64,000 nt of DNA from Pseudomonadaceae bacterium (lineage in GTDB: Bacteria; Pseudomonadota; Gammaproteobacteria; Pseudomonadales; Pseudomonadaceae). How positions within the stretch are numbered: position 1 is the first letter of the stretch; the number at the start of each line of letters is the position of its first letter. Below the pieces are notes generated by a model. The model was given only the letters and a program-made list of their open reading frames with translations, was not told the DNA's origin and ran no database searches. The translations under genes and the position numbers were made by a program. The stretch is taken from the NCBI GenBank assembly GCA_019745275.1, contig JAIETJ010000062.1, forward strand, positions 1 to 64,000, read 5' to 3'. Shown in pieces: positions 24,279 through 42,657 of this stretch.

Positions 24279-25091
24279 CTAATGTAATTGTCCGTTGACC
24301 ATACGCTTAGCCGCGCCGCTGGCGATTAGCTCGGCTAAAACTGCCACATCGAGTAACGCGCACATATGCTCAATCACCGTACCGGCCAGCCACGGACGCT
24401 GGGTACGTTGACCGCGCCATTTGACCGCATTGGGGTCCAGACGTATTGAGCGACTCACTTCATGCACCGCCAAACCCCACTCGTAGCCCTGTACCGAAAT
24501 CACATACTGCAAGCCGTCGCGCAGCTCATCACGGTAACGCTCAGGCATCACCCAGCGCGCCGTATCGAGCACCTTAAGATTGCCGCTCGGGGTCGGTAGA
24601 ATCCCCAAGAACCAATCTGGCTGACCAAACAGCGGGGTCAGCTCTTGCCCGGCTAAAGGGTGAATCGAACCCAAACACACCAGTGGCACCGCTAAGGTCA
24701 AACCGGCCACATCAAACAGCAAGCACTCGAAGGGCTCCTGCGCCCAACTCGGAGGCCCGCCAGCGGGCTGCAATACGGGGTTATGCGTATCGAGTTGCGG
24801 GGCCGGTGCAACAACCGGCGCTACCAGCAACACATCCACTTGCACCGGTATTACCGGCTGCGGCACGACCTCAAGCGTTAAGGTTTCGATAACCGGCAGC
24901 GTTGCCTGCACAACAGGCTGGGCAACGACTTGCAAACGCGCATCACGAACCTGCTCTTCGAGCACAGCCGTGGCAAATTCATCCAGCTCGGTACTCTGTG
25001 CCAGTTCAGCACTGGCGTCCTGCAGCAAAGCATCCAAATAGGACATCAAGGCCAGTTGCGGGCGCGTGGCGGTGACGACTGGACGACTCAT
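24279..25091 (-). CDS. parP: ParP-like CheW-domain protein for polar chemotaxis arrays
   Basis: A 270-residue protein with an N-terminal variable part rich in Val, Pro and Gln (residues 20-125) and a C-terminal CheW-like domain starting near FECLLFDVAGLTLAVPL and running to the end. Just downstream of a ParA-type ATPase gene and before cheW, this is the position and form of ParP of Vibrio and Pseudomonas, which binds ParC and CheA and keeps chemotaxis arrays at the old pole. The ATG at 25091 is preferred over a GTG at 25097. A candidate sigma28 promoter lies 32 bases upstream. Confidence 0.8.
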   Translation of the reverse strand: MSRPVVTATRPQLALMSYLDALLQDASAELAQSTELDEFATAVLEEQVRDARLQVVAQPVVQATLPVIETLTLEVVPQPVIPVQVDVLLVAPVVAPAPQLDTHNPVLQPAGGPPSWAQEPFECLLFDVAGLTLAVPLVCLGSIHPLAGQELTPLFGQPDWFLGILPTPSGNLKVLDTARWVMPERYRDELRDGLQYVISVQGYEWGLAVHEVSRSIRLDPNAVKWRGQRTQRPWLAGTVIEHMCALLDVAVLAELIASGAAKRMVNGQLH

Positions 25092-25122
25092 AAACACATC
25101 CCGTTAAAACGGCCTTGAGGAT

Positions 25123-25175: not shown

Positions 25176-25964
25176 TCAAGCCACCTGCGCACTGGGTTGT
25201 GCGGCCAACAGTTGCTTGAGCAGTGCGCGATACGCCAATACGGCCCGGCAATTCACATCGAATTGGGAGGGCGTGAGGCCAGCACGACTGGCATCGCGCA
25301 ATCGTGTATCGACCGGTATATAGGCCGGCCACAGATTGTCAGGATAGCTATTACGCAGCACCCGCAAAGTGCTCATCGACGCTTGAGTGCGCCGGTCAAA
25401 CAGAGTCGGCACTATCACGTACGGCAAGGCTTGCTTGCGTGAGCGGTTAATCATCGCCAAGGTGTTAACCATCCGTTCCAAACCTTTAACGGCAAGAAAC
25501 TCGGTTTGCACCGGAATCACTAACTGCTGACTGGCAGCCAACGCATTGACCATCAAGATACCCAACAATGGCGGGCTATCGATGATCGCGTAATCAAAGT
25601 CGCCCCATAGCTGCGCCAAGCTCTTGGCGATTACCAAACCCAAACCACTTTGCCCCGGCGATTGCCGTTCAAGCGTGGCCAACGCCGTGCTGGCCGGCAG
25701 CAGCGCAATCCGCTCATGGCTGGTGGGCAACAACAATTGATTTGGCAAGCCTTGCGGCACCACGCCCTGATGTAAAAAAAGATCGAAACTGCTGTGTTCC
25801 AAGGCATCCGGATCATGGCCAAAATAACTGGTCATCGAACCATGCGGGTCGAGATCGACCATCACCACGCGTTTGCCGGCATCGGCCAACAAGCCTGCGA
25901 GGGCGATGGATGTGGTGGTTTTACCGACTCCACCCTTTTGATTGGCGACTGCCCAAACTCTCAT
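25176..25964 (-). CDS. parC: ParA-family ATPase (ParC of the chemotaxis locus)
   Basis: A 262-residue MinD/ParA-type ATPase. The deviant Walker A is NQKGGVGKTTTSIALA (residues 8-23) with the signature Lys, Walker A' is VVMVDLDPHGSM, and Walker B is YAIIDSPPLLG. It is encoded between motD and the CheW-domain parP. In Vibrio and Pseudomonas, the ParA-like ParC in this position directs chemotaxis arrays to the cell pole through ParP. It is distinct from FleN, the flagellar-number ATPase at 33149-33982. Start ATG at 25964, five bases after the motD stop. Confidence 0.85.
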   Translation of the reverse strand: MRVWAVANQKGGVGKTTTSIALAGLLADAGKRVVMVDLDPHGSMTSYFGHDPDALEHSSFDLFLHQGVVPQGLPNQLLLPTSHERIALLPASTALATLERQSPGQSGLGLVIAKSLAQLWGDFDYAIIDSPPLLGILMVNALAASQQLVIPVQTEFLAVKGLERMVNTLAMINRSRKQALPYVIVPTLFDRRTQASMSTLRVLRNSYPDNLWPAYIPVDTRLRDASRAGLTPSQFDVNCRAVLAYRALLKQLLAAQPSAQVA

Positions 25965-28841: not shown

Positions 28842-31103
28842 TCAACCACGACGGGCGTAGCGCTTGAGCATACTTGGCACATCAAGAATTAAGGCAATAC
28901 GTCCATCGCCGGTAATGGTTGCCCCGGACATCCCCGGAGTGCCTTGCAGCATTTTGCCCAAGGGTTTAATGACCACCTCCTCTTGGCCAACCAACTGATC
29001 AACCACAAAGCCGATACGCTGAGTGCCCACCGACAAAATAACCACATGTCCCTCGCCCTGCTCTTCGCAGTCAGAGCCATTAACCAGCCAGCGCTTGAGA
29101 TAAAACAGTGGCAAGGCCTTGTCGCGGACAATCACCACCTCTTGGCCATCGACCACATTGGTACGGGTCAAATCGAGGTGGAAGATTTCGTTCACATTCA
29201 CCAGAGGGAAAGCGAAAGCTTGGTTACCCAGCATCACCATCAAGGTCGGCATAATCGCCAAGGTTAATGGCACCTTAATAACAATCTTGGTGCCCTGGCC
29301 CTTGGTTGAGTAGATGTTAATGATGCCGTTGAGCTGGGAAATCTTGGTTTTCACCACGTCCATGCCAACGCCACGTCCGGACACGTCGGTAATTTCGGCC
29401 TTGGTAGAAAAACCTGGGGCGAAGATCAAGTTAAAGCACTCGGCGTCACTTAAGCGATCGGCTGCGTCTTTATCCATCACGCCTTTTTCTACCGCTTTGG
29501 CGCGCAGTACATCCGGGTCCATACCGTTGCCGTCATCGGTAATCGACAAAAGGATATGGTCGCCCTCTTGTTGCGCCGCCAAAATAATCTTACCGCCACG
29601 GCTCTTACCGTTGGCCTCGCGTTGATCGGGCAATTCGATGCCATGGTCAACCGAGTTGCGCACCAAGTGCACTAAGGGATCGGCCAGCGCCTCGACCAAG
29701 TTTTTGTCGAGGTCGGTTTCTTCGCCGACCAACTCCAAGTTGATTTCTTTTTTCAGGTTGCGGGCCAGATCGCGAACCAAACGCGGGAAGCGACCAAACA
29801 CTTTTTTGATCGGCTGCATGCGGGTTTTCATCACCGCCGTTTGCAGATCGGCGGTTACTACATCGAGGTTAGAAACCGCTTTGGCCATGGCCTCATCGTT
29901 GCTGTTGGAGCCCAACCGCACCAAGCGGTTACGCACCAGCACCAACTCACCGACCATGTTCATGATTTCATCCAGCCGTGCGGTGTCCACTCGCACGGTG
30001 GTTTCAGCTTCACTGGCAGCGGGCTTGTCACCCGTCGCAGGTACTGCTGCTCGAGCAGGCTCAGCTCTAGCTGGGGCCGGTACCGGCTCAACTGCGCGGG
30101 CAGGTTCCTCGACACTGGCAGCAACCGGCTTAGCTGCCGCGACAGGTTTGGCCGGTGCAGCAGGTTTTGGCGCCACTACCGCTGGCGCACTGGCGGCAGG
30201 CTCAACAAACTTGCCCTTGCCATGCAACTGGTCGAGCAAGGCCTCGAACTCATCGTCGGTGATATTTTCACCACCGTTTACAGCAGCCGCACTGGACGAC
30301 TCGGCAGAAGTTTCCGGTGCAGAGTCTGCCGGAGCTTCAAACTTACCTTTGCCGTGCAACTGATCGAGCAATGCCTCGAACTCGTCATCGGTAATTTCAC
30401 CATCCGGGGTTGCCGCAACGGGTGCCGGTGCAACTGGCGCAGCTTCGGGGGCAGCAAACTGACCCTTGCCGTGCAATTGATCGAGCAACGACTCAAACTC
30501 ATCATCGCTAATGTCATTAGACGAAGAAGTACTCACAGAAACTTCCGCCGCTGGCTCTGCCAGCACCTCAGCGGGTTGCGCCAAGGCATCTAATAACTGC
30601 TCAAACTCACTGTCGGTAATATCATTGTTATCGCTAGCAGCGGGCGTTTCTTGATACTCAACCTCAGGCTCTACCGCTGCAGCAACTGCCGCGGGTGCGG
30701 GTGCGGGTGCGCCACCGGGCTCAGCCAAACGCGCCAAAGCAGCTAATAGCTCCGGCGTGGCATGCGTCACTTCGCTACGTTCGCGCACTTGGGCAAACAT
30801 CGAATTAACCGCATCGAGTGTTTCTAGCACCACGTCCATGAGTTCGGAATCAACCCGACGTGCACCTTTACGCAGAATATCGAACACGTTTTCTGCGATA
30901 TGGCAGCATTCCACCAGCGCATCCAGCTGGAGAAAACCGGCTCCACCTTTGACCGTGTGAAAACCACGGAAAATGGCATTGAGCAAATTCATATCGTCCG
31001 GGCGATTTTCAAGCTCAACCAACTGTTCGGACAACAGTTCAAGAATCTCGCCGGCCTCTACCAGGAAGTCCTGGAGAATTTCTTCATCGGCGCCGAAGCT
31101 CAT
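28842..31103 (-). CDS. cheA: chemotaxis histidine kinase CheA with repeated linker motif
   Basis: A 753-residue kinase that phosphorylates CheY and CheB. P1 Hpt domain with His49 (FRGFHTVKGGAGF), a long linker and P2 region, dimerisation domain (AETTVRVDTARLDEIMNMVGEL, about residue 365), HATPase with N box LVHLVRNSVDHGIE and G boxes DDGNGMD and GRGVGMDVV, and a C-terminal CheW-like P5 domain. The linker contains four copies of I-T/S-D-x-E-F-E-x-L-L-D, three of them continuing QLHGKG-K/Q-F (near residues 162, 198, 237 and 281). It lies 11 bases after cheZ; the gap to cheB is 108 bases with no promoter that I could place. Confidence 0.95.
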   Translation of the reverse strand: MSFGADEEILQDFLVEAGEILELLSEQLVELENRPDDMNLLNAIFRGFHTVKGGAGFLQLDALVECCHIAENVFDILRKGARRVDSELMDVVLETLDAVNSMFAQVRERSEVTHATPELLAALARLAEPGGAPAPAPAAVAAAVEPEVEYQETPAASDNNDITDSEFEQLLDALAQPAEVLAEPAAEVSVSTSSSNDISDDEFESLLDQLHGKGQFAAPEAAPVAPAPVAATPDGEITDDEFEALLDQLHGKGKFEAPADSAPETSAESSSAAAVNGGENITDDEFEALLDQLHGKGKFVEPAASAPAVVAPKPAAPAKPVAAAKPVAASVEEPARAVEPVPAPARAEPARAAVPATGDKPAASEAETTVRVDTARLDEIMNMVGELVLVRNRLVRLGSNSNDEAMAKAVSNLDVVTADLQTAVMKTRMQPIKKVFGRFPRLVRDLARNLKKEINLELVGEETDLDKNLVEALADPLVHLVRNSVDHGIELPDQREANGKSRGGKIILAAQQEGDHILLSITDDGNGMDPDVLRAKAVEKGVMDKDAADRLSDAECFNLIFAPGFSTKAEITDVSGRGVGMDVVKTKISQLNGIINIYSTKGQGTKIVIKVPLTLAIMPTLMVMLGNQAFAFPLVNVNEIFHLDLTRTNVVDGQEVVIVRDKALPLFYLKRWLVNGSDCEEQGEGHVVILSVGTQRIGFVVDQLVGQEEVVIKPLGKMLQGTPGMSGATITGDGRIALILDVPSMLKRYARRG
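30207..30620 (-). repeat. in-frame tandem motif repeats in cheA
   Basis: Four related coding units lie in the cheA linker. Each encodes D/E-I-T/S-D-x-E-F-E-x-L-L-D; three continue QLHGKG-K/Q-F followed by an Ala/Pro-rich spacer. Spacing between units is 36, 39 and 44 codons. DNA identity is high between units 2, 3 and 4, which points to duplication. Confidence 0.8.
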
Positions 31104-31114
31104 GCGTGTGCTCC

Positions 31115-31903
31115 CTAAAAACCAAGACTAGATAGCAGATCGTCGACATCGACCTGACCAGATACAACGTCTTCACGTGTATCGGCATGAATCTGCGGAC
31201 CTTCACCCTTGGATGGCTCTTTTTGTTGTTTTTGTTCAGCACGCAACTCATCGTGGTCGTGCTTGATGCCGGTATAGCGGTCGATTTGCGAAGCCATGCA
31301 AACCAGCTTGAGCAAATTACTCTCAACCTCAGTGACCATTGCCGTCACCCGCTTGATCACCTGCCCCGTTAAATCTTGGAAGTCTTGGGCAAGTAAAATA
31401 TCGTTCAAGTGGCCAGACAGTTTGCTGCTATCGCGATCACTTTGTTCAAGAAACGCTTCAATCCGCTTGGCCAATTCGCGAAACTCATCGGCACCCACTT
31501 CGCGGCGCATAAAGCGCGCCCAATCGGCACTCAAAGCGCGCGACTCTGCGCCAATGTCATTGACCAGCGGTGCGCATTCTTCAACTAAGTCCATGGTGCG
31601 ATTGGCCGCTTTCTCGGTCATGCGCACAACATAGTTAAGCCGCTCACTGGCATCGCTGATTTCCGAGACTTCGGCGGCGTGAGAGCCACTCAAGTCAACT
31701 TGAAAATTAACGATGGAGTTGTGCAATTCGCGGGTTAACTTGCCGACCTCATGGTAGAGGCCTTGATCACGGGCTTTGTTTAAATCATGAATAACTTCAA
31801 TCGCGTCACTGAAATTACCGCGCTCAAGGCTTTCCATCAGCGAGCGTGCGTGGTTTTTCAGACTCGACTCAAGGTCAGTCATTTGCGGCTCTTTATGCTC
31901 CAT
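31115..31903 (-). CDS. cheZ: CheY phosphatase CheZ
   Basis: A 262-residue all-helical phosphatase that dephosphorylates CheY-P. The active-site helix ILLAQDFQDLTGQVIKRV carries the catalytic Gln of the D-x-x-x-Q motif near residue 150. The C-terminal DVDDLLSSLGF is the CheY-binding tail. The ATG at 31903 is chosen because GAGGGCG precedes it and it gives MEHKEPQMTDLE, the usual Pseudomonas N-terminus; an earlier in-frame start would overlap cheY. It lies 19 bases after cheY. Confidence 0.94.
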   Translation of the reverse strand: MEHKEPQMTDLESSLKNHARSLMESLERGNFSDAIEVIHDLNKARDQGLYHEVGKLTRELHNSIVNFQVDLSGSHAAEVSEISDASERLNYVVRMTEKAANRTMDLVEECAPLVNDIGAESRALSADWARFMRREVGADEFRELAKRIEAFLEQSDRDSSKLSGHLNDILLAQDFQDLTGQVIKRVTAMVTEVESNLLKLVCMASQIDRYTGIKHDHDELRAEQKQQKEPSKGEGPQIHADTREDVVSGQVDVDDLLSSLGF

Positions 31904-31922: not shown

Positions 31923-32297
31923 CTAGCCGTTAACCCGCTCAAAGATCTTGTCGATCTTCTCTTTCAGCACTTGCGCGGTAAACGGCTTAACTACATAGCC
32001 ATTCACGCCTGCTTGCGCCGCTTCGATAATCTGGTCGCGCTTGGCCTCAGCCGTCACCATTAACACAGGCAACTGCTTGAGCCGCTCATCGGCGCGCACG
32101 GCTCGCAACAGGTCGATACCGGTCATCCCGGGCATGTTCCAGTCGGTTACCAGAAAGTCAAAGCTGCCGCTTTGCAGCATCGGCAGTGCAGTGACGCCAT
32201 CATCAGCCTCAGCGGTGTTGGTAAATCCCAAGTCACGCAAGAGGTTCTTGATGATTCGCCGCATTGTCGAAAAGTCATCGACGATGAGGATTTTCAT
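31923..32297 (-). CDS. cheY: chemotaxis response regulator CheY
   Basis: A 124-residue single receiver domain that binds FliM when phosphorylated. D7-D8, phospho-acceptor D52 ([11 protein letters not shown]), Thr in VTAEAKR and Lys in YVVKPFTA are all present. The ATG at 32297 gives [12 protein letters not shown], as in other Pseudomonas CheY; an in-frame TTG at 32309 would add four residues. Its leader contains a 20-base perfect palindrome (32333-32352). Confidence 0.95.
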
Positions 32298-32332
32298 GTT
32301 CTTGTCCAAATCGACCTCCGTACAGTCCTAAA

Positions 32333-41175: not shown

Positions 41176-41643
41176 TCAGCGTAACTTCTTAATGCGTTCA
41201 CTTGGACTGATCACATCAGTCAAGCGAATACCGAACTTTTCGTTCACCACCACCACCTCGCCATGGGCGATCAAGGTGCCGTTAACCAGCACATCAAGCG
41301 GCTCACCGGCCAGTCGATCGAGCTCAATAACCGAGCCCTGATTAAGCTGCAGCAAGTTGCGAATGGTGATTTCGGTATTGCCCACTTCCATGGAAATAGA
41401 CACCGGAATATCCAGGATCACATCCAGATTAGGCCCATCCATACTCACCGGCGCGCTTGAGCGCGGCACGCTACCAAACTCTTCCATCTTCGCCCGTGGC
41501 GCGGGCGGCTCGACGGCCGCCGCGCTGGCCATCATCGCGTCGATGTCATCCTGATCGTTATCCCCAGCCTCGGACAGCGCTGCCGCCCATTCATCGGCTA
41601 AGGCCTGCTCTTCGGGAGAGGTGGTTTCTTCTTCGTCGGCCAT
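41176..41643 (-). CDS. fliN: flagellar motor switch protein FliN
   Basis: A 155-residue C-ring protein. A long acidic N-terminal region (residues 1-65, with EEETTSPEEQALADEWAAAL) precedes the SpoA domain (LDVILDIPVSISMEVGNTEITIRNLLQLNQGSVIELDRLAGEPLDVLVNGTLIAHGEVVVVNEKFGIRLTDV in family terms, residues about 73-145). It binds FliM and FliH. It lies 42 bases after fliM. Confidence 0.95.
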   Translation of the reverse strand: MADEEETTSPEEQALADEWAAALSEAGDNDQDDIDAMMASAAAVEPPAPRAKMEEFGSVPRSSAPVSMDGPNLDVILDIPVSISMEVGNTEITIRNLLQLNQGSVIELDRLAGEPLDVLVNGTLIAHGEVVVVNEKFGIRLTDVISPSERIKKLR

Positions 41644-41685: not shown

Positions 41686-42657
41686 TTAACGCGAACGCGG
41701 TACCGGGTCGAGCACCTGAAATGCCAGCTTGCCTTTGTGCGCGCCGAGCTTAACGGTAAATGCCGGCACGCCATTGGCACGCAACAATACTTGTTCGGGT
41801 AAATCGACCGGAATGACATCGCCCGGCTGCATATTTAAAATATCGCGCAAGCGTAACTGCCGTGTGGCCACGGTCGCGCCTAGCGGCACGCTAACGTCAA
41901 GAATGTCTTCGCGCAGGGCATTCACCCAACGCTCATCTTGATCGTCGACATCCGACTGAAAACCGGCATCGAGCATGTCGCGAATCGGCTCGATCATCGA
42001 ATACGGCATAGTGACGTGTAAGTCGCCGCCACCGCCGTCGAGTTCGATATGAAAGGTGGAAACCACCACCACTTCACTTGGACTGACGATGTTGGCCAAC
42101 GCGGGGTTAACTTCCGAGCTGATGTACTCAAAGTTAATGTCCAGCACGGCATGCCAAGCTTCTTTGAGGTCGATAAAGGCCTGATCGATGACCATGCGCA
42201 CCACCCGCAACTCAGTTGGGGTGAACTCACGACCCTCGATCTTGGCGTGCCGGCCATCGCCACCAAAAAAGTTATCCACCAGCTTGAACACCAATTTGGC
42301 ATCCAAAATAAACAAACCAGTGCCACGCAACGGCTTCATTTTGACGAGATTGAGGCTGGTCGGCACATACAACGAGTGCACATATTCGCCAAACTTCATC
42401 ACCTGCACGCCCCCCACGGCGACGTCAGCCGAGCGGCGCAACAGGTTAAACATACTCACGCGGGTGTAACGGGCAAAACGCTCGTTGATCATCTCCAGCG
42501 TCGGCATGCGCCCGCGAACGATCCGATCTTGGCTGGACAGGTCGTAGGTTTTGGCCGTGCCGGGCTCAGCGGCGTCTTCAGTCTCGACATCACCGTCATC
42601 GACGCCGTGCAGCAGGGCATCGATTTCGTCTTGTGAGAGCAGGTCTTGCACAGCCAT
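41686..42657 (-). CDS. fliM: flagellar motor switch protein FliM
   Basis: A 323-residue C-ring protein. The N-terminal LLSQDEIDALLHGVD is the CheY-P-binding peptide, the middle CheC-like domain starts near RMPTLEMINERFAR, and the C-terminal SpoA domain ends the protein (VSVPLGATVATRQLRLRDIL...). Contacts FliG and FliN. Twelve bases separate it from fliL. Confidence 0.96.
   Translation of the reverse strand: MAVQDLLSQDEIDALLHGVDDGDVETEDAAEPGTAKTYDLSSQDRIVRGRMPTLEMINERFARYTRVSMFNLLRRSADVAVGGVQVMKFGEYVHSLYVPTSLNLVKMKPLRGTGLFILDAKLVFKLVDNFFGGDGRHAKIEGREFTPTELRVVRMVIDQAFIDLKEAWHAVLDINFEYISSEVNPALANIVSPSEVVVVSTFHIELDGGGGDLHVTMPYSMIEPIRDMLDAGFQSDVDDQDERWVNALREDILDVSVPLGATVATRQLRLRDILNMQPGDVIPVDLPEQVLLRANGVPAFTVKLGAHKGKLAFQVLDPVPRSR

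Follow-up and report, generated by a model that had tools for sequence, protein, structure and literature searches.

The linker between P1 and P3 of the CheA encoded in the window (here, the whole stretch of 64,000 nucleotides that was analyzed) carries four copies of the motif I-[TS]-D-x-E-F-E-x-L-L-D at positions 30207 to 30620 of the minus strand, and the presence of a conserved helical docking motif where a P2 domain would be is well supported. Judged from sequence comparisons, these copies are probably multivalent docking peptides of the FliM/CheZ type for CheY, and perhaps for CheB, that replace P2. A folded domain for docking CheY, usual in such kinases, appears to be missing from the main chemotaxis kinase of Pseudomonas-like bacteria.

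Four motif copies lie in the P1-P3 linker of CheA

The window (features in Table 1) holds one run of genes encoding CheY, CheZ, CheA, CheB, MotA/MotB-like proteins (named by eye and by position), ParC, ParP, and CheW. CheA matched the Pfam domains Hpt (residues 8 to 100), H-kinase_dim (368 to 427), HATPase_c (475 to 614), and CheW (621 to 748), and no P2 or CheY-binding model of Pfam matched it. An earlier note on this DNA had placed motif copies at CheA residues 162, 198, 237, and 281, positions that the translated sequence confirms, and had described a QLHGKG-[QK]-F continuation in three of them, which we found in copies 2 to 4 and not in copy 1. The C-terminus of CheZ (GQVDVDDLLSSLGF) we take, by homology, to be the CheY-binding peptide of that protein. 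Near the N-terminus of FliN (window positions 41176 to 41643), there is a similar short segment, DNDQDDIDAMM. Long open frames also run antisense to cheA and its linker on the plus strand (29841 to 30593, 250 amino acids, and 29638 to 30363, 241 amino acids), most likely as a by-product of base composition.

Table 1. Features of the window discussed in the text
Feature	Position	Strand	Basis
cheA, 753 aa, P1-linker-P3-P4-P5, no P2 domain found	28842..31103	-	ORF and Pfam
P1-P3 linker, approximately residues 127-367, Ala/Pro/Glu rich, mostly disordered	30003..30725	-	AlphaFold2 pLDDT
Motif copy 1, ITDSEFEQLLDALAQPAEV, no LHGKG tail, predicted helix 164-174	30564..30620	-	AlphaFold2
Motif copy 2, ISDDEFESLLDQLHGKGQF, predicted helix 200-211	30456..30512	-	AlphaFold2
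Motif copy 3, ITDDEFEALLDQLHGKGKF, predicted helix 239-249, best Pfam SHOCT stretch	30339..30395	-	AlphaFold2, Pfam
Motif copy 4, ITDDEFEALLDQLHGKGKF, predicted helix 283-294	30207..30263	-	AlphaFold2
cheY, proposed partner of the motif	31923..32309	-	Pfam Response_reg, 3.5e-31
CheZ C-terminus, GQVDVDDLLSSLGF	31118..31159	-	ORF and Pfam; C-termini of related CheZ proteins were hits of the FliM profile
FliM N-terminal core LSQDEIDALL, known CheY-binding motif used for comparison	42610..42639	-	
ParP-like protein, CheW-like C-terminal domain, rival partner	24279..25097	-	Pfam and ParP profile
ParC-like ParA-family ATPase	25176..25964	-	Pfam and ParC matches

The high DNA identity of the copies had been taken as a sign of recent copy-number change. 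A search of the window for DNA repeats returned an 80-nucleotide unit present three times (78% and 69% to the reference) and a 39-nucleotide unit present four times (72 to 79% to the reference). Copies 3 and 4 are identical at 19 of 21 residues, with the same codon at 11 of these 19; the same-codon counts are 9 of 16 for copies 2 and 4 and 12 of 16 for copies 2 and 3, the only pair among copies 2 to 4 clearly above the codon sharing of 0.45 expected from the codon use of the gene. Since codon sharing is mostly not clearly above expectation, the likeness of the copies at the DNA level is mostly due to the conserved protein. With little codon signal in the window, and with copy positions that are stable among close relatives, a recent duplication of the motif was discarded.

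The motif is conserved across the class and excludes P2 in the CheAs examined

A sample of 100 loci was fetched from genomes of the order and the class, and the CheA was taken from each; linker boundaries could be set in 99 of the 101 CheAs, window included (the exceptions being L045 and L067). A regular expression for the motif matched 251 copies in 91 of these 99 proteins. The eight CheAs without a match comprise other CheA types (L113 to L118) and two proteins with variant copies, L058 and L111, which the expression missed and which were recognized by reading. Position 5 is F in all 251 instances, where the expression permitted F, I, V, L, M, or Y, and at two positions left free by the expression the residue preceding F is E in 248 and the residue after LL is D in 238. 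The flanking linker columns are variable, unlike the motif residues, which are near-invariant across the class, and over the 251 instances in 91 CheAs the conservation of the motif residues exceeds chance. Within the sampled Gammaproteobacteria, the strict motif is present in 95 of 97 CheAs of one clade, the exceptions being L286, which has only 67 residues ahead of its core, and L111, with its degenerate variant copies. A lack of conservation beyond close relatives, named in the earlier note as part of the outcome that would count against a docking motif, was not seen, as the motif occurs across the class.

The 91 regex-positive CheAs carry from one to six copies, with at least two in 85 of them. 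Counting the repeats in related CheAs, as had been proposed, gave four copies in 74 and three in 6 of 80 titled loci, all readable, which were the best 80 of 563 relatives and mostly Pseudomonas and Stutzerimonas; a second set of 29 loci, 24 of them readable, had four copies in 23 and three in 1. Moreover, for positions 1 to 3, copies at the same position in different genomes are more alike than copies within one protein, and for position 4, the likeness between genomes is about that within a protein. The motif is old and not a recent expansion.

Because the Pfam P2 models were too insensitive (PF09078 was above its cut-off in 1 of 229 genomes, as was PF07194), we built a P2 profile of our own. 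A first version with two seeds retrieved its seeds only, and the working profile was made from 13 seeds chosen by eye from CheAs outside the clade. It matched none of the 97 clade CheAs and 35 of the 42 others, and, with 13 of these 35 being seeds, it is the 0 of 97, the 22 non-seeds, and the new loci of the phylum draw described below that are free of seed bias. The strict motif was found in none of the 42 nonclade CheAs, bar one regex match inside the P2 of L269. Clade and nonclade CheAs were separated on core identity (at least 48% in the clade, 39 to 46% in the others) and not on the motif, and two of the proteins, L250 and L286, are too short before the core (86 and 67 residues) to show a linker. 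With a relaxed pattern, weak matches appeared in two nonclade CheAs, L279 and L282, and were judged unlike the motif.

A draw of 120 genomes from the phylum yielded 30 CheA loci. The 14 belonging to the clade (8 already in the sample and 6 from new genomes) all have the motif and no P2 match, while among the 16 nonclade loci, the motif was found in 0 and P2 in 12, one of these 12 being already in the sample. Two loci from outside the class, L303 and L304 (48% and 46% core identity), have neither. Next, a FastTree of the CheA core domains was built with the linker left out, in which L105 and L108 are absent on account of their short cores, and it was rerun without L295, a duplicate of L129, leaving 158 tips. 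In this duplicate-free tree, all 99 strict-motif tips fall in one clade of 101 tips, the only other members being L286 and L111; all 46 P2 tips lie outside it, as do 11 tips with neither P2 nor motif. The support for this clade is 0.63 (0.24 with the duplicate) and rises to 0.97 with L114 included. The motif and P2 are mutually exclusive in the CheAs examined, a complementarity that comes from one clade and is in effect one evolutionary event.

Core identity, tree placement, and gene neighbors put the clade tentatively in the F6 class. In an excerpt of PMC7534058, the F6 name is applied to cluster II of Vibrio cholerae, and a CheA of this species is given a P2 ahead of another linker element, the LID; in an excerpt of PMC11978298, the CheA of Pseudomonas putida is drawn with a CheY-binding (P2) domain taken from Pfam. 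Both of these CheAs should belong to the motif clade, and in one strain of P. putida the CheA gave no P2 match at E values up to 1.

The motif resembles the peptides with which FliM and CheZ bind CheY

The N-terminal EIDALL motif of FliM binds the groove between alpha4 and alpha5 of CheY according to an excerpt of PMC9126983, which cites structure 1F4V for this motif in FliM/FliY, and an excerpt of PMC3774744 describes the same face of CheY as common to CheZ and FliM. FliM and the CheA motif have a common helix pattern, hydrophobic-[ST]-x-x-E-[hydrophobic]-[DE]-x-L-L, and the window FliM (LSQDEIDALL) aligns without gaps with ITDDEFEALL of CheA. The CheA motif differs from that of FliM in its place in a kinase linker, in being repeated, usually two to four times, in having F for I, and in an additional D-x-L-H-G-K-G tail. 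The C-terminal peptide of CheZ (of the QDEVDDLLSSLGF type) is retrieved by the same FliM profile and likewise has LL followed by a further L; unlike the CheA motif, it is single and C-terminal and has V in place of F. The CheA motif is longer than that of FliM, and at its most invariant position, F, the peptides of FliM and CheZ have I or V.

The FliM profile had 10 columns and was made from 22 N-termini of 30 FliM loci (8 yielded none), the window FliM included. Over 5,391 ORFs, it ranked FliM first, and most of the remaining top 70 were linkers of CheA or C-termini of CheZ, interspersed with a few unrelated ORFs. The best site in CheA was the motif in 91 of 95 clade CheAs, whose median rank was 108 and of which 87 of 95 were in the top 5%. 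Since 2 of 6 nonclade CheAs reached the top 5% too, protein length helps this rank. Above the 99th percentile of 2,409 background ORFs were 78% of the clade CheAs and 88% of CheZ, and 0 to 2% of ParP, CheB, MotB, CheW, ParC, and CheY. Column-permuted profiles did as well in 2 of 300 cases (6 of 300 by median tail), and none of 280 profiles made from different conserved blocks reached the FliM value of 0.83, although an internal helix block of CheZ (0.82) and a block of ParP (0.75) came close. With this FliM-only profile, the CheA motif shows the core pattern of a short amphipathic helix of the FliM/CheZ kind, a likeness over 10 residues that is weak as evidence and part of which may reflect a generic acidic helix start; copy 1 of the window scored poorly, with a per-site tail of 1.3e-3.

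In the reverse scan, a profile of the CheA motif was run over 5,286 non-CheA ORFs, and the first hit was the N-terminus of a FliM (an ORF of L112 that is FliM by BLAST, with 37% identity over 315 amino acids). The top 45 include the window FliM and several CheZ C-termini, and the top of the scan also holds internal helices of CheZ and unrelated ORFs, one of them ranked second. The literature searched gave no paper for DQLHGKG and no description of the CheA linker motif, and nothing relevant to P2-less, FliM-like, or short-linear-motif docking of CheY by CheA was among the matches listed. On the loss of P2 from CheA, one directly useful survey was among the matches listed, and one paper came up on the CheA LID.

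The motif is kept in genomes in which ParC and ParP were not found

The earlier note had offered CheY, CheB, ParP, or an array protein as the partner of the repeats. A reading that centers on ParP is that the motifs make up all or part of the LID, to which the AIF domain of ParP binds, and that they thereby anchor the array at the pole by way of ParC. The LID is placed in the CheA linker, between P2 and P3, in an excerpt of PMC7534058, and W305 of ParP is required for the contact with CheA in an excerpt of PMC5706961; furthermore, in 65 of the 101 loci, the motif occurs together with a ParP match of more than 100 bits. However, the latter excerpt reports the LID only in CheAs that come with ParC/ParP, and the motif does not need them. 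We tallied both proteins by hand in 78 class-level clade genomes (L039 to L112 and L285 to L288), in which the matches were bimodal: for ParP, the lowest accepted match had 69.6 bits and the next 56.6, and for ParC, matches had about 190 bits and above, with other ParA proteins at 155 or less. ParP was detected in 60 genomes, ParC without detected ParP in 9, and neither in 9. The linker was readable in eight of the last nine, all eight with the motif (L111 as a variant), the ninth being L286.

These eight genomes, in which genome-wide searches found neither ParC nor ParP, are G066, G248, G057, G078, G226, G081 (motif in variant form), G082, and G210, and the genomes checked for the absence of ParP were 91 to 100% complete. 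Rapid evolution of ParP could have hidden it from the search; ParC, which is better conserved, was not found either. The LHG tail, too, is still found in at least one copy in six of the eight genomes. ParP is therefore unlikely to be the only partner of the motif, and as sole partner ParP/ParC is disfavored. The Vibrio LID lies in the same linker, ahead of P3, and, if it is restricted to CheAs with ParC/ParP, it must be something other than the motif, or more than it. Overall, we consider it unlikely that the motifs are the LID. Among the partners named in the note, CheY fits best because of the complementarity with P2 and the likeness to the FliM and CheZ peptides.

One clade CheA (L095:3010-5112) has three copies without the LHGKG tail (ITDDEFEALLNQRD), set in a longer, near-identical repeat with LPEGVDPDG; its genome is one of those in which the searches returned no ParC or ParP.

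The motif copies are the only predicted helices of the linker

A monomer model of the window CheA was made with AlphaFold2 from an alignment of 41 CheAs. Its mean pLDDT is 77, falling below 50 over most of the linker, in which the only helices coincide with the four motifs (Table 1), with mean pLDDT of 52 to 80 in 10-residue blocks. The prediction is of short helices in an otherwise flexible segment, as in peptides of the FliM/CheZ kind, and no P2 fold was seen in the modeled linker. P2, the CheY-binding domain (PF07194, PF09078), occupies the same place between P1 and P3, and the job proposed for the motif, holding CheY and CheB, is also the same; unlike this folded domain, the motif linker is a disordered chain with separate predicted helices. 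Together with the conservation, this disorder with isolated helices supports the earlier idea that the flexible linker carries repeats of a docking motif. A search of the PDB with the motif peptide gave no match, and a fold search with CheA returned CheA and other histidine-kinase-type structures (best 50 of 570).

CheA, CheW, and receptors are the core partners of any CheA array, and with such obligatory partners at hand, the motifs, at least two per protein in 85 of 91 regex-positive CheAs, might make contacts with CheA itself, with CheW, or with the tips of receptors and in this way adjust the activity of the kinase or the packing of the array. The separate helices and disordered chain of the monomer model speak against such contacts, which also give no reason for the mutual exclusion with P2, and we regard this explanation as improbable. 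It is more doubtful still that the motif is a SHOCT-like helix (PF09851), perhaps for oligomerization. PF09851 matches 31 of the 41 aligned CheAs at E values up to 0.01, and the window CheA reaches 31.6 bits against a cut-off of 27; nevertheless, the best stretch covers only model positions 13 to 27 of 28, no single stretch passes the threshold alone, L111 and L058 have no match, and the P. putida CheA is under the cut-off. To our knowledge, the SHOCT domain itself has no clear function, and no paper on SHOCT with CheA and chemotaxis came up in the literature searched. A neutral linker repeat with no partner, with which the copy number of 1 to 6 among the 91 regex-positive CheAs would agree, is scarcely credible given near-invariant residues in 251 instances across the class between variable flanks.

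Discussion

How CheAs without P2 hold CheY is a real question, as over half of all CheAs have no P2 according to an excerpt of PMC10542144, and docking on a conserved, repeated FliM-like motif would, if true, offer a specific answer for a large clade with Pseudomonas among its members. The position of the motif, its exclusion of P2, and its likeness to FliM and CheZ lead us to regard CheY as its rather likely ligand. CheB shares P2 with CheY and, by analogy, could share this docking site as well.

In the mechanism that we propose, each copy would fold onto the alpha4-beta5-alpha5 face of CheY, as the EIDALL helix of FliM does, and the repeats would keep several CheY molecules near the phosphorylated histidine of P1. 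Phosphorylated CheY would then depart for FliM and CheZ, which would compete through similar peptides. How tightly CheY is held, or whether its unphosphorylated form is preferred, may depend on the LHGKG tail and on the invariant F, for which FliM and CheZ have I or V. We put forward more tentatively, with the odds slightly against it, that the folded CheY-docking domain was replaced once in the clade by a string of peptides mimicking the helix of the motor, that variants of one peptide on the kinase, the phosphatase, and the motor all compete for a single face of CheY, and that a CheA dimer, having four copies on each chain, could keep as many as eight CheY molecules at the array. If CheY docking on the motif is true, competition of the kinase, the motor, and CheZ for CheY is what it predicts. 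Caution is also warranted against labeling this linker region P2 or SHOCT in CheAs of the clade.

Other linker repeats were observed in the course of this work. The second CheA of the same genome (L002:1471-3381, contig C30), which has no Pfam P2 match, carries a different linker repeat, [FY]G[FL]F-x-D-[AE]-P, with the copies FGFFADAPGAP, YGLFADEPP, and YGFFDDAPGAP, and a similar motif occurs in four copies in L249 and in one copy each in L115 and L116. In the nonclade linkers of L251, L264, and L303, two degenerate G[EDQ]-x-L-[VL] helix units stand just before P3.
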